A stretch of 32,501 nt of DNA, taken from IMG/VR virus record IMGVR_UViG_3300019760_000009, positions 1-32,501 of that record; one strand, given 5' to 3'. Made by a program: the position numbers and the translations under genes. Origin of the DNA: a virus. Each line of letters starts with the position of its first letter. Position 1 is the first letter of the stretch. Below, in pieces: positions 14,307 through 18,427 of this stretch. The notes under the pieces are model-generated. The model worked only from the letters and a program-made list of their open reading frames with translations, made no database searches and had not been told where the DNA came from.

Positions 14307-14582
14307 TTAAGCTAGTGTAAGTGACGAACTTAAAACAGTTACATCACCAGCGGCAGAAACAGCATCAACAAAGATCATAGTAAACGTTTCTGTGCCACCG
14401 TTCGCATCAACAGACCAAATTACATCACCTTTCTTTAGTCCTAGCGTTGCCGCTGCAGGGTTAAAGTAATTAGCTGCAACTACAGTTGCTTTTGCATCTG
14501 GCGTTGTATAGCTAAAATGTCGTGGTGCATTGCTGTTTGCCATGCTAGATAGTGGTAAAAAAGTGTCTGCAGTAAAAGCCAT
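14307..14582 (-). CDS. Probable head decoration protein, 91 aa
   Basis: A 91-aa beta-rich, Ala/Ser/Thr-rich protein encoded immediately downstream of the major capsid gene. Its whole length resembles the N-terminal 80 residues of the protein encoded at 15684-16430, on the other side of the capsid gene. Shared landmarks are F-x-P-x-S-x-x-A-N-S-x-x-P, Y-x-T-x-D, a V-x-A-x-N-Y-F block and K-x-G-[DE]-x-I. Small proteins in this slot are often capsid decoration or cement proteins. That role is inferred; the family resemblance between the two proteins is directly visible. Confidence 0.65.
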   Translation of the reverse strand: MAFTADTFLPLSSMANSNAPRHFSYTTPDAKATVVAANYFNPAAATLGLKKGDVIWSVDANGGTETFTMIFVDAVSAAGDVTVLSSSLTLA

Positions 14583-15492: not shown

Positions 15493-15499
15493 TATATGT

Positions 15500-15537
15500 C
15501 CCCTTATTAAATAAATTTTAGCTTGTTTAGTAAGGGG
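15500..15537 (-). promoter_or_regulatory. Hairpin that pairs with the capsid gene Shine-Dalgarno
   Basis: In the minus-strand RNA, CCCCUUA (plus coordinates 15531-15537) can pair with UAAGGGG (15500-15506) across a 24-base loop. The second arm contains the entire AAGGGG ribosome binding site of the major capsid gene. One mismatch and two more A-U pairs extend it inward. The surrounding leader (15493-15683) contains no gene; a -10-like TATTAT (15641-15646, minus strand) is present but without a convincing -35. Confidence 0.55.
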
Positions 15538-15683
15538 TGTGTCCTGAACGGGGCCGCCTAACTAAAAGTAATCTTACGATTTAAGTTTAATTAGTCATTG
15601 CTCAGGCTCAAAAGTGAGGTATCTGAAAGACTTAATTACAATAATACACCATTTATTTTAAAAACAAAATTTAATACCACATA

Positions 15684-16430
15684 TTAAACCCACCTCTCTA
15701 TTCTTATGGCTGCACTTGGCGCTGTATTCCATTCTGCACCAGCTGCGTCGGTAGGGTTGAAACCAATCAAACCGCCAAAGTTAGAGCCGCTAGAGTCGCG
15801 CATAATATCATATTTTAACGTGGTTCCGGCAGGTAAGAAAATCCAAGTGTCATTTTCAAAGTATTGCGTTGAACCTGAGTTAACAAGCTTAGTTGAAATG
15901 CTGCCACCAGCTTGAACGTCATTGGCTCTAACTCTAAATAATAATATTGACGTTCCGCTTGCGCCGGTTCTTCCGTATTGCAATGCTACCTTTATTCTAT
16001 AAAGTCCACTTTCGTTTACAGTCACCGTTCCTAATTCGTCAAGCATAACAGGGTCAGTAACATCATTAACAGCTGGGCCAAAGTTTACCTGCATTGCATT
16101 TGCTGGCCCTAAACCGGTTGGGTCTTGTTCATCTGCAGTGGCAATACCATCAAACAATCGCTCAATGTTTATATTGTTAGTTGGGTTAAATGTATTAACG
16201 TCAGTATTTAACGTAATGGCAGAGCCTGCTTTATCAAATGACGCCAAGAAATTACCATCGGCAGAGTCAACAATAATAAACTCACCTGTTTTCAGTTGGT
16301 TTATTTTTGCTATGAAATAGTTTTCAGCAATTACCTGGCCGGTAGTATCGGCTGTTCGATACGCCCATATTTTAGGCGAATCACTATTTGCATTGGCTGA
16401 AACAGGGCTGAAATTCTTTTGATTAAACAT
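15684..16430 (-). CDS. Head surface protein with C1q/TNF-like C-terminal domain, 248 aa
   Basis: Residues 1-80 resemble the 91-aa protein encoded beyond the capsid gene (F-S-P-V-S-A-N-A-N-S-D-S-P, then Y-R-T-A-D, V-I-A-E-N-Y-F, K-T-G-E-F-I). Residues about 110-248 form a beta-sandwich-like domain: G-T-V-T-V-N-E-S-G-L-Y-R-I-K-V-A-L-Q-Y, then L-L-F-R-V-R-A-N, then W-I-F-L-P-A-G-T-T-L-K-Y, ending I-R-I-E-R-W-V. This has the strand pattern of C1q/TNF-like trimeric jelly rolls common in phage and spore surface proteins. The natural reading is a two-domain capsid decoration or head fibre: an anchoring module plus an exposed trimer. It lies between the small head genes and the capsid gene. Confidence 0.6.
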   Translation of the reverse strand: MFNQKNFSPVSANANSDSPKIWAYRTADTTGQVIAENYFIAKINQLKTGEFIIVDSADGNFLASFDKAGSAITLNTDVNTFNPTNNINIERLFDGIATADEQDPTGLGPANAMQVNFGPAVNDVTDPVMLDELGTVTVNESGLYRIKVALQYGRTGASGTSILLFRVRANDVQAGGSISTKLVNSGSTQYFENDTWIFLPAGTTLKYDIMRDSSGSNFGGLIGFNPTDAAGAEWNTAPSAAIRIERWV

Positions 16431-16440
16431 GGCAAAACCT

Positions 16441-16731
16441 CTAGTTTATTTCGTCAGGCGGTGAATAGTGATTCATAATTTGCTTTGTTTGTTCAAGCGA
16501 GCAAACAAAAGGGCCTATTTCACCTGCGTCAATAGCGCTTATTGTTTGTTCGGCTGTTAATTCTTTAAACTCTGCGGTTGGGTATTGCTCTTTAAGCAAT
16601 GGGTAATCAGCGTTTGTAAACACTAAAACGCGATAGCCGCCCACTAATGGCGCATCAGGCCAGCGATCGCTTAATGATTCAGCCCATCCCATTGCAGTTA
16701 CAAATGCGTAAAGTTGATATAATTTGCTCAT
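16441..16731 (-). CDS. Hypothetical virion-operon protein, 96 aa
   Basis: Not recognised. The start at 16731 is chosen because its ATG overlaps the preceding stop as ATGA; a frame beginning four codons earlier is possible. The protein starts M-S-K-L-Y-Q-L-Y-A-F-V-T-A-M-G-W and has the look of a small alpha/beta fold (Y-R-V-L-V-F-T-N-A-D-Y-P-L-L near residues 34-47). There is no membrane segment. Its place among head genes suggests a structural or assembly role. Confidence 0.6.
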   Translation of the reverse strand: MSKLYQLYAFVTAMGWAESLSDRWPDAPLVGGYRVLVFTNADYPLLKEQYPTAEFKELTAEQTISAIDAGEIGPFVCSLEQTKQIMNHYSPPDEIN

Positions 16732-17300
16732 AGTTCTTTCCACACAGCTTCGGTGTAATTAGGCATAAATGCGTTAACATTACCCACTGTTGCAAGCTGT
16801 GTAGCTCCTTGTGGTTTGTTGTTTAAGGGTATTTCGTGGATTACAGCGCCGCTTCTTATAACTCTAAAGTTATAAACAGCTAAGTTCAAAAATAATGAGC
16901 TACCTGATCTGCTTGTAACATATGACATTATTTCTTCGCCAACTGTGGCCGCGCTTATCGTATTGTTTCCACTAGACGGGATTGGTGTTACGTTGTTGTC
17001 TATTAGCTGTGAATTAAGTGTAGGGGTTCCAAATGCGGCTTTAACTCTAAAATTAAGACTGTCAGCTGTTGTGGATAAATATAGATTCCTGCTATCAGAT
17101 TCCAAGAACATTGCAAAAGCATTGCTAACTTGACCTCCAACAAAGCTTAATTCAACAACGTCATTAGCGATCAAGGTGATAGGGGAAGTAAGCTGCCAAC
17201 TTTGCGTAGCACCATCTAACTGAGCTACATAATTAATATCACCACCAAAAATAGGCTTTAATATTGGGCTTAGTATGCTTCCTAATATTGGGTTAAGCAT
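16728..17300 (-). CDS. Probable virion protein with lectin-like beta domain, 190 aa
   Basis: The start at 17300 (M-L-N-P-I-L-G-S-I-L-S-P-I-L-K-P-I-F-G-G) overlaps the preceding stop by eight bases. A longer frame to 17345 would overlap the upstream gene more deeply. The N-terminal 20 residues are a Leu/Ile/Pro repeat of about seven residues (P-I-L-G-S-I-L, then S-P-I-L-K-P-I-F) that could be a capsid-docking peptide. The remaining residues are beta-rich, with a concanavalin/laminin-G-like feel (S-W-Q-L, N-L-Y-L-S-T-T, L-N-F-R-V-K-A). Likely a head-surface or head-fibre component, inferred from neighbours. Confidence 0.55.
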   Translation of the reverse strand: MLNPILGSILSPILKPIFGGDINYVAQLDGATQSWQLTSPITLIANDVVELSFVGGQVSNAFAMFLESDSRNLYLSTTADSLNFRVKAAFGTPTLNSQLIDNNVTPIPSSGNNTISAATVGEEIMSYVTSRSGSSLFLNLAVYNFRVIRSGAVIHEIPLNNKPQGATQLATVGNVNAFMPNYTEAVWKEL

Positions 17301-17541
17301 AGAAGTTACCGTAAATTGCCAGCTTTGCATCACCTGTAATTTCAAATACCATTACAGCGTCTTTAAAGTCACCGAACTGTGCAAAGTCCGCTGTTTTTGA
17401 TTCTTCTAAGTTTACGTATTCACCATCATCAACACGAACTTTCATTTGCATACTGCCAGTACCAGCCTTAAACGCTAGAACCTGACCGCCTTTCATTTGT
17501 ATTTCTTGTGCGCTATCTGCGCTGGTAAGTAATTTTGCCAT
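17293..17541 (-). CDS. Small beta-rich head protein, 82 aa
   Basis: An 82-residue soluble protein with alternating hydrophobic strands (G-Q-V-L-A-F-K-A-G, M-Q-M-K-V-R-V-D-D-G-E-Y, A-V-M-V-F-E-I-T-G, L-A-I-Y-G-N-F-Y). This suggests a small beta-barrel, a plausible decoration protein. GGAG lies five bases before the ATG, but half of it is captured by a potential pseudoknot that fills the space between this gene and the scaffold gene. The gene overlaps the next by eight bases. Role is inferred from location. Confidence 0.6.
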   Translation of the reverse strand: MAKLLTSADSAQEIQMKGGQVLAFKAGTGSMQMKVRVDDGEYVNLEESKTADFAQFGDFKDAVMVFEITGDAKLAIYGNFYA

Positions 17542-17548
17542 GATAACT

Positions 17549-17594
17549 CCGATTGATACTAGTTAAGCTAGGCAACCAATCGGCTAGCCTAGCT
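17549..17594 (-). promoter_or_regulatory. Candidate H-type RNA pseudoknot over a ribosome binding site
   Basis: In the minus-strand RNA four segments alternate. A is AGCUAGGC (17587-17594) and B is CCGAUUG (17577-17583). A' is GCCUAGCU (17566-17573) and B' is CAAUCGG (17549-17555). A pairs with A' (8 perfect bp) and B pairs with B' (7 perfect bp), with connecting loops of 3, 3 and 10 bases. B' includes the two G residues of the GGAG ribosome binding site of the 82-aa gene. Arm A begins five bases after the scaffold stop codon, so a ribosome finishing scaffold would open it. Confidence 0.55.
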
Positions 17595-17599
17595 GTTAT

Positions 17600-18427
17600 T
17601 TACCCAATAATTTGTTTGTGATCTTCTGTGCCGTAAACTTCATTTCTTAACTTGATGTAACGCGCTTTAAACTCTGGATCTGTTGCAATGCGGCGGTTGC
17701 CGTGTTCGTCCTTTTCAAACTGCATAGACCGAACATCTTCGGCGGTTGCACCTGCATTGTTATTTGAGCCGTCAGCGTCCATTGGTGCGCTGCGAGTCAT
17801 TGAGATTAAACGCTCTATGGCTTTTACTGATTCTGCGCTGGTGGCTATTTGCTCAAGCCCTTGGATTGTTTCAGGGTCTAAGTTCTTATTAGCCCATTGC
17901 TGAATGTTTTCAATGCGTGAGTTGGCATTAGGGCCCAAAGCTTTTAATTGCTGTTCTTTGTATTCGGCCTGTGCCTTTTGCTCTGCAACCTGTTGCATAG
18001 CGTAAAGGTTAACCATGCCGTTAAAGCCCTCTTGGCTCATGTTGCTTTCTTTGGCAAACTCTTTAGCAGCTTCAAGCATAGGATCGTCAGCGCTAATCTC
18101 TATACCCATTTCTTTGAGCTCGTCACTCAAAGCAACTTCTGCATATTCTTCTGGTGCGCCTGTGAATGCGCCAAACTTACCCGAAAGCTCTTTATATGCT
18201 TTTGCTTGCTCTGCGGTTGCTTCATCAACAGTTTTACCGTCAGTGGCGTATTTATCTAAAAGCCATTCAGGGCGCTCTGGCTCTTGTTGCTGCCCCTCAA
18301 CAGGTGGTGTTTGCTGTCCATCATCATTGCTTTGCTCTTGAGTGCCACCAGCTCCACCATCTGCAGCGCCATCGTCAGCGGCTTCTTCTCGGAATACACG
18401 GCCTAACCAGTTTCTGTTAATTAGCAT
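17600..18427 (-). CDS. Capsid scaffolding protein
   Basis: A 275-aa very acidic, Gln/Glu/Ala-rich, helical protein. It has a low-complexity N-terminal linker (residues 14-55, rich in D, G, Q and P), a central region around P-E-W-L-L-D-K-Y then A-K-A-Y-K-E-L-S-G-K-F-G-A-F-T-G-A-P-E-E-Y (residues 52-93) and a charged C-terminal tail. The P-E-W-L-x-x-K-Y and G-A-P-x-x-Y elements recur in podoviral scaffold proteins. It is placed between the Bbp19-like gene and the capsid genes, as expected for the internal scaffold that guides shell assembly. The start codon is an ATG two bases after the preceding gene's stop. Confidence 0.8.
   Translation of the reverse strand: MLINRNWLGRVFREEAADDGAADGGAGGTQEQSNDDGQQTPPVEGQQQEPERPEWLLDKYATDGKTVDEATAEQAKAYKELSGKFGAFTGAPEEYAEVALSDELKEMGIEISADDPMLEAAKEFAKESNMSQEGFNGMVNLYAMQQVAEQKAQAEYKEQQLKALGPNANSRIENIQQWANKNLDPETIQGLEQIATSAESVKAIERLISMTRSAPMDADGSNNNAGATAEDVRSMQFEKDEHGNRRIATDPEFKARYIKLRNEVYGTEDHKQIIG

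Follow-up and report, generated by a model that had tools for sequence, protein, structure and literature searches.

A candidate family of pseudoknot leaders that would hide the ribosome binding site behind the scaffold gene of marine podoviruses

To our knowledge, the unequal output of head proteins from neighbouring phage genes is mostly unexplained outside a few model phages. The present locus raises this question for the genes that follow the scaffold gene of a marine podovirus (IMG/VR virus record IMGVR_UViG_3300019760_000009; "the window" is the whole stretch analysed, positions 1 to 32,501, 32,501 nt). An H-type RNA pseudoknot had been predicted between the scaffold gene and an 82-aa protein, as a switch coupling the translation of the two. 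The best reading of the sequence data is that this leader belongs to a new family of cis-acting pseudoknot leaders that hide the Shine-Dalgarno (SD) motif. Related phages keep the arrangement with quite different letters, which makes a genuine element of translation control very probable. Also, it is likely that this cis-acting leader, by hiding the SD in an H-type pseudoknot, reduces or times the start of translation on the fibre/adsorption cassette that follows.

The leader and the genes around it

The gene order is terminase, portal, a 98-aa protein, scaffold, p82-p190-p100-p248, major capsid protein (PF19821), p91 and tail genes; scaffold, the cassette p82 to p248 and the leader lie on the minus strand. 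The scaffold gene (capsid assembly; 275 aa, 17600-18427) was recognized by a match to PF05396 Phage_T7_Capsid above the cut-off (E 6.5e-9) and by its position between the portal and capsid genes. The first cassette gene, p82 (82 aa, 17293-17541), is the gene predicted to be under leader control. It had no match in Pfam or PHROG, and its AlphaFold2 model, that of a small all-beta protein (pLDDT 72), had no PDB match at E ≤ 0.001. The start of p190 (16728-17300; phrog_6609 in its C-terminal part) overlaps the p82 stop (ATGCTTAA). A weaker 7/6 pseudoknot pattern was seen at this overlap (17265-17301, minus strand), probably a chance match, as the expected number per window is 1.4. The third gene, p100 (100 aa, 16441-16743), belongs to phrog_6699, has a relative in RIO-1_41, and presents a GTG start at 16743 and an internal ATG at 16731. 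The fourth, p248 (248 aa, 15684-16430), is of the head-fibre type (phrog_18004 and phrog_3614, with a weak BclA_C match below the cut-off); its AlphaFold model, made without alignment, was of no use (pLDDT 38). Both p91 (14307-14582) and the N-terminus of p248 (15684-15870) match phrog_18004, a duplicated domain that flanks the capsid gene.

A sister phage (L001/L005) presents 96-97% DNA identity with the window on both sides of a divergent p190-p100 segment (window 16441-17300), in which protein identity is about 32-36% (36% for p190 against L001). This combination of the same leader with a divergent p190-p100 suggests that the p190-p100 cassette is exchangeable. The sister leader is unchanged at all 58 positions, versus 9 changes at 109 four-fold sites of the scaffold gene, which is a weak sign of constraint; being identical, it gives no covariation. 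In L002, a phage with unrelated terminase- and portal-like genes, a p82 relative is found without a window-type leader (L002:2998-4474); the protein after it starts out like p190 and, by eye, reads into an SGNH-hydrolase-like domain. The p82/p190 pair seems to be mobile among phages.

Between the scaffold stop and the p82 start lie 58 nt. On the minus strand, the scaffold TAA (17602-17600) is followed by ATAAC, AGCTAGGC, TAG, CCGATTG, GTT, GCCTAGCT, TAACTAGTAT, CAATCGG, AGTTATC and the p82 ATG (17541-17539). The predicted pair of perfect stems, of 8 and 7 bp, proved exact to the base: all pairs are Watson-Crick, and the stems interleave in the A-B-A'-B' order of an H-type pseudoknot (17594-17549), with loops of 3, 3 and 10 nt. 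Stem S1 joins arm A, AGCTAGGC (17594-17587), to arm A', GCCTAGCT (17573-17566), and begins 5 nt past the scaffold stop, as had been stated. Stem S2 joins arm B, CCGATTG (17583-17577), which lies inside the S1 loop and is complementary to the SD region, to arm B', CAATCGG (17555-17549). The claim that this second stem occupies half of the p82 SD is also borne out, as B' takes in the GG of the GGAG motif (17550-17547). An intrinsic terminator was considered and rejected, because TAACTAGTAT, which follows stem A, holds no U run. No known RNA family was found in the window at the Rfam 15 gathering score, nor in 13 related loci; at E ≤ 5, just two chance-level matches to other RNAs appeared (E 3.6-4.7).

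The geometry had been judged too compact for chance, a statement which holds for the leader site but not for a search of the whole window. When the 58-nt leader was shuffled 100,000 times with its dinucleotides preserved, an 8/7 H-type pseudoknot arose twice. On both strands of the real window it is present once, with 0.10 expected in the whole shuffled window, so that its presence is about a 1-in-10 event. The geometry alone is therefore suggestive and not proof, and the case for the element is carried by the comparative evidence. For the window loop (CCGAUUG/CAAUCGG), its own SD ranked 1st among 21 SDs, and pairing of the S2 5' arm with the SD gave p = 0.0011 in an SD-tail shuffle.

Relatives of the leader and covariation

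Some 200 loci were collected with the capsid, scaffold and fibre proteins as queries. The capsid gene directly follows scaffold in many of them; where a fibre-type gene follows scaffold, two layouts were found. In the first, the fibre gene overlaps the scaffold stop or starts within about 15 nt of it (L070, L162, L222 and L239), and there is no leader. In the second, a head-fibre-type gene starts 58-140 nt past scaffold, most often behind a stop-adjacent hairpin with an apical loop complementary to the SD; this hairpin consists of an outer stem, a 3' bulge and an inner stem, and the gene directly after the leader is of the p248 type. The hairpin starts 0-12 nt past a stop codon in nearly all leaders (5 nt in the window), at 19 nt only in L098 and L099, and the main hairpin of L199 is about 30 nt away. 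In L103, the stop that the leader stands behind is that of a small inserted gene. No leader is present where the fibre-type gene lies beyond the capsid gene (L226, L234). Protein searches in a collection of annotated phages turned up no more than distant relatives of scaffold, carried by four Vibrio phages, of which the one examined has its capsid gene directly after scaffold; a search of a genome collection gave two distant loci.

The letters of the loop change together with those of the SD. The loop/SD pair is CCGATTG/CAATCGG in the window, CTCTACC/GGTAGAG in L198, L207 and L103, CCCTACC/GGTAGGG in L200, L202 and L212, TCCTACC/GGTAGGA in L199, CCTCAC/GTGAGG in L195, CCCCCA/TGGGGG in L157, CTCACC/GGTGAG in L098, CCCCGC/GCGGGG in L241, TCTACCTT/AAGGTAGA in L061 and ATTCCCCC/GGGGGAAT in L032. 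Homologues which break both stems without compensation are not the rule. The exceptions are L051, whose loop is not complementary to the SD, L063, with one mismatch in the loop:SD helix, and L066, L089 and L145, which carry a different, long scaffold-fibre leader of 134-139 nt. This long leader presents a hairpin loop TGTTGGG with several CCCAAC copies downstream; from its sequence, the loop may pair with these copies rather than with the SD.

Loop:SD complementarity was measured mechanically: RNAfold supplied the apical loop, the 22 nt ahead of the start stood for the SD side, and nothing was chosen by hand. Matched loop/SD pairs scored 14.7 versus 11.7 ± 0.5 for mismatched ones (n = 27 leaders, p = 1e-5). 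The excess was maintained with one leader per 70%-identity cluster (n = 14, p = 8e-5) and with the window left out (p = 0.0012). Pyrimidine-rich loops and purine-rich SDs cannot explain this result, because the permutation keeps both biases. Of the 14 clusters, 6 showed strong loop:SD pairing, compared with 2 among 57 other gaps in these contigs (Fisher p = 5e-4), the control having listed 4 of 59 gaps before two that were the leaders themselves were removed.

The covariation sought in related phages was found: the topology is kept with other sequences, and both hairpin stems as well as the loop:SD helix covary. In blocks from 16 relatives, cut in register by hand, 94.8% of cells were paired (44-56% in slid controls) and 17 of 18 pairs were changed on both sides; such hand-cut blocks lean towards the structure, a weakness from which the mechanical test is free. 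For S2 alone, i.e., the loop:SD helix, 91% of cells were paired and 6 of 7 pairs had changed on both sides, with a covariation score equalled in none of 500 shuffles. A MAFFT alignment of whole leaders gave no useful structure in RNAalifold, because stem lengths differ, and fixed blocks and the mechanical loop test were used instead.

The window leader shares with these relatives its place between the scaffold stop and the first gene of the fibre cassette (here p82, p190 and p100 precede the fibre-type p248) and a stop-adjacent hairpin with an SD-pairing loop. It differs in form: the relatives present an outer and an inner stem, a 3' bulge of 4-8 nt and a loop that does not compete, whereas the window has one 8-bp stem and a 4-bp inner stem that competes with S2. 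As the separate, non-competing inner stem is absent, the window leader appears to be a variant in form of the family, perhaps only an analogue. Common descent would rest on topology, place and SD pairing, which are shared, and not on sequence, which is not.

Competing folds and possible modes of control

Stacking energies of -17.2 (A) and -12.2 kcal/mol (B) were used for the pseudoknot; in Dirks-Pierce-type models, forming a pseudoknot costs 7 to 9.6 kcal/mol. The two stems together thus come to -19 to -22 kcal/mol, a rough estimate obtained by adding this penalty to the stacks. Two nested folds rival this pseudoknot, one with the SD open and the other with the SD hidden. In the first, stem A is extended by 4 bp (AGCC/GGUU, 17585-17582 with 17577-17574) at the expense of part of B, and RNAfold gives -18.4 kcal/mol for the resulting 8 + 4 bp fold, which leaves the SD mostly open and comes close to the estimated pseudoknot in stability. 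In the second, which forms when S1 is blocked, a 9-bp hairpin of CCGAUUGGU (17583-17575) and AUCAAUCGG (17557-17549) with an inner CUAG/CUAG hides the SD (-14.3 kcal/mol). Given this competition, the window leader may be a two-state switch. In the relatives, the pseudoknot should be more clearly favoured than in the window, because the inner stem, as a rule, does not compete with the loop:SD helix.

We propose that the hairpin would form directly behind the scaffold stop codon, that its apical loop would pair with the SD of the next gene to give the H-type pseudoknot, and that initiation on p82-p190-p100-p248 would be lowered or timed while the SD is hidden. The cassette could then be made at a rate unlike that of scaffold and capsid, even though all may be on one mRNA, an arrangement assumed from the gene order. 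We infer that the RNA adopts this fold in the cell and represses, that some trigger opens it, and that cassette and scaffold share an mRNA.

The original prediction saw this trigger in the ribosome that ends scaffold, which would melt stem A and free the SD, so that p82 would be translated only together with scaffold. A link with scaffold is favoured by the leaders themselves, which stand right behind its stop in nearly all cases and are absent where fibre genes abut scaffold or lie elsewhere. The 0-12 nt spacing of the hairpins and the L103 leader, which follows the stop of an inserted gene, speak for such coupling, as does the first layout, where the same scaffold/fibre junction has the overlap or few-nt spacing of classical coupling by termination-reinitiation; the window differs from that layout in having 58 nt of structured leader between stop and start. 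However, when the first 8, 12 or 15 nt past the stop were removed, as a crude stand-in for a ribosome sitting on the stop codon, the window RNA refolded into the 9-bp hairpin with its SD still paired, at about -14 to -15 kcal/mol (-14.3 or lower; nested folding only). In the relatives, by inspection, only the outer stem adjoins the stop; its loss would spare the inner stem and the loop:SD helix, and melting the first arm should therefore not free the SD. Thus, the part of the prediction in which a pseudoknot covers the SD of the gene that follows scaffold is upheld by the relatives and their covariation, but its opening by a terminating ribosome is not. On the folding models it is doubtful that ribosomes leaving scaffold open the leader, and we regard the coupling switch as rather unlikely. 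If the ribosome matters, its effect could even be opposite in sign, because the extended stem A with the open SD needs the arm that the ribosome would cover. Coupling via post-termination scanning is a conceivable other route.

By analogy, the hairpin or pseudoknot could instead be a putative operator, with scaffold or coat as the head protein that binds there and thereby represses the cassette. Scaffold autoregulation is known in P22, and both head leaders, that of the fibre cassette and that of the capsid gene, have SD-pairing loops. The pseudoknot in the T4 gene 32 leader serves autogenous repression by gp32 (PMC3014915). Against this, the stem sequences vary freely, the loop tracks the SD, and no invariant unpaired motif, which a conserved protein target often shows, was seen by eye in the fibre leaders; an operator is thus unlikely. 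A simpler explanation would be that only the nested, SD-hiding stem B:B' matters, with stem A incidental, or that the window pseudoknot is a chance match. B:B' on its own does form a nested hairpin of -7.7 to -14.3 kcal/mol, and an 8/7 pseudoknot should turn up in one of every ten shuffled windows. This explanation is decidedly unlikely in view of the leader shuffles (2 in 100,000), the recurrence in relatives of the A-B-A'-B' order at this junction, and the strong covariation of the hairpin stems. The SD-hiding pseudoknot leader is the reading that we retain.

Known systems and the capsid leader

In the SAM-II and preQ1 riboswitches, the second helix of the pseudoknot takes in the SD. The window leader resembles them in this respect, but has neither a conserved ligand pocket nor an Rfam match, and in leaders of its type the loop sequence follows the SD rather than being conserved. 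Papers on such riboswitches include PMC9373788 and PMC9410914. The gene 32 leaders of T4, T2 and RB69 are also phage mRNA leaders with an H-type pseudoknot and an expected control of translation start. That pseudoknot is placed some 67 nt ahead of the start, serves as a gp32 nucleation site and is not paired with the SD (PMC3014915), whereas in the window the SD is itself part of S2, and the leader has no known protein ligand. In the timP and tisB toxin mRNAs, alternative conformations, one of them pseudoknotted, set translation, as proposed here; their pseudoknot is required for translation (PMC11228461; PMC7708055), whereas that of the window would cover the SD. A 2010 review regarded the T4-type gene 32 element as perhaps the only viral pseudoknot known in translation autoregulation (PMC3014915), and a literature search, with most subscription papers outside its reach, returned no description of leaders such as these. 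A covarying, SD-pairing pseudoknot kept at a fixed junction with other letters in many uncultured phages offers a directly testable case.

Also, the capsid gene is preceded in nearly all relatives by a larger conserved leader, in which the apical part of a hairpin pairs with the capsid SD. In the window, this large structured element lies at 15493-15665 (minus strand), and it is present in L007-L046 and others; no Rfam match was obtained in the window or in the 13 loci examined. We tentatively suggest that head genes of this marine podovirus group are under SD-pairing RNA switches, i.e., the fibre family and the capsid leader, which would set the scaffold:fibre:capsid ratio by RNA folding and possibly sense a head protein. 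The capsid leader may be a larger discovery than that of the fibre cassette. Across 70 capsid leaders, matched loop/SD pairs scored 16.4 versus 11.3 ± 0.28 for mismatched ones, and the pairing reaches 12-13 bp in L030, L026, L155 and L186. In the subgroup of the window, capsid loop:SD pairing is weak, and the SD faces a nearby CCCCTTA instead (CCCCTTA/TAAGGGG).
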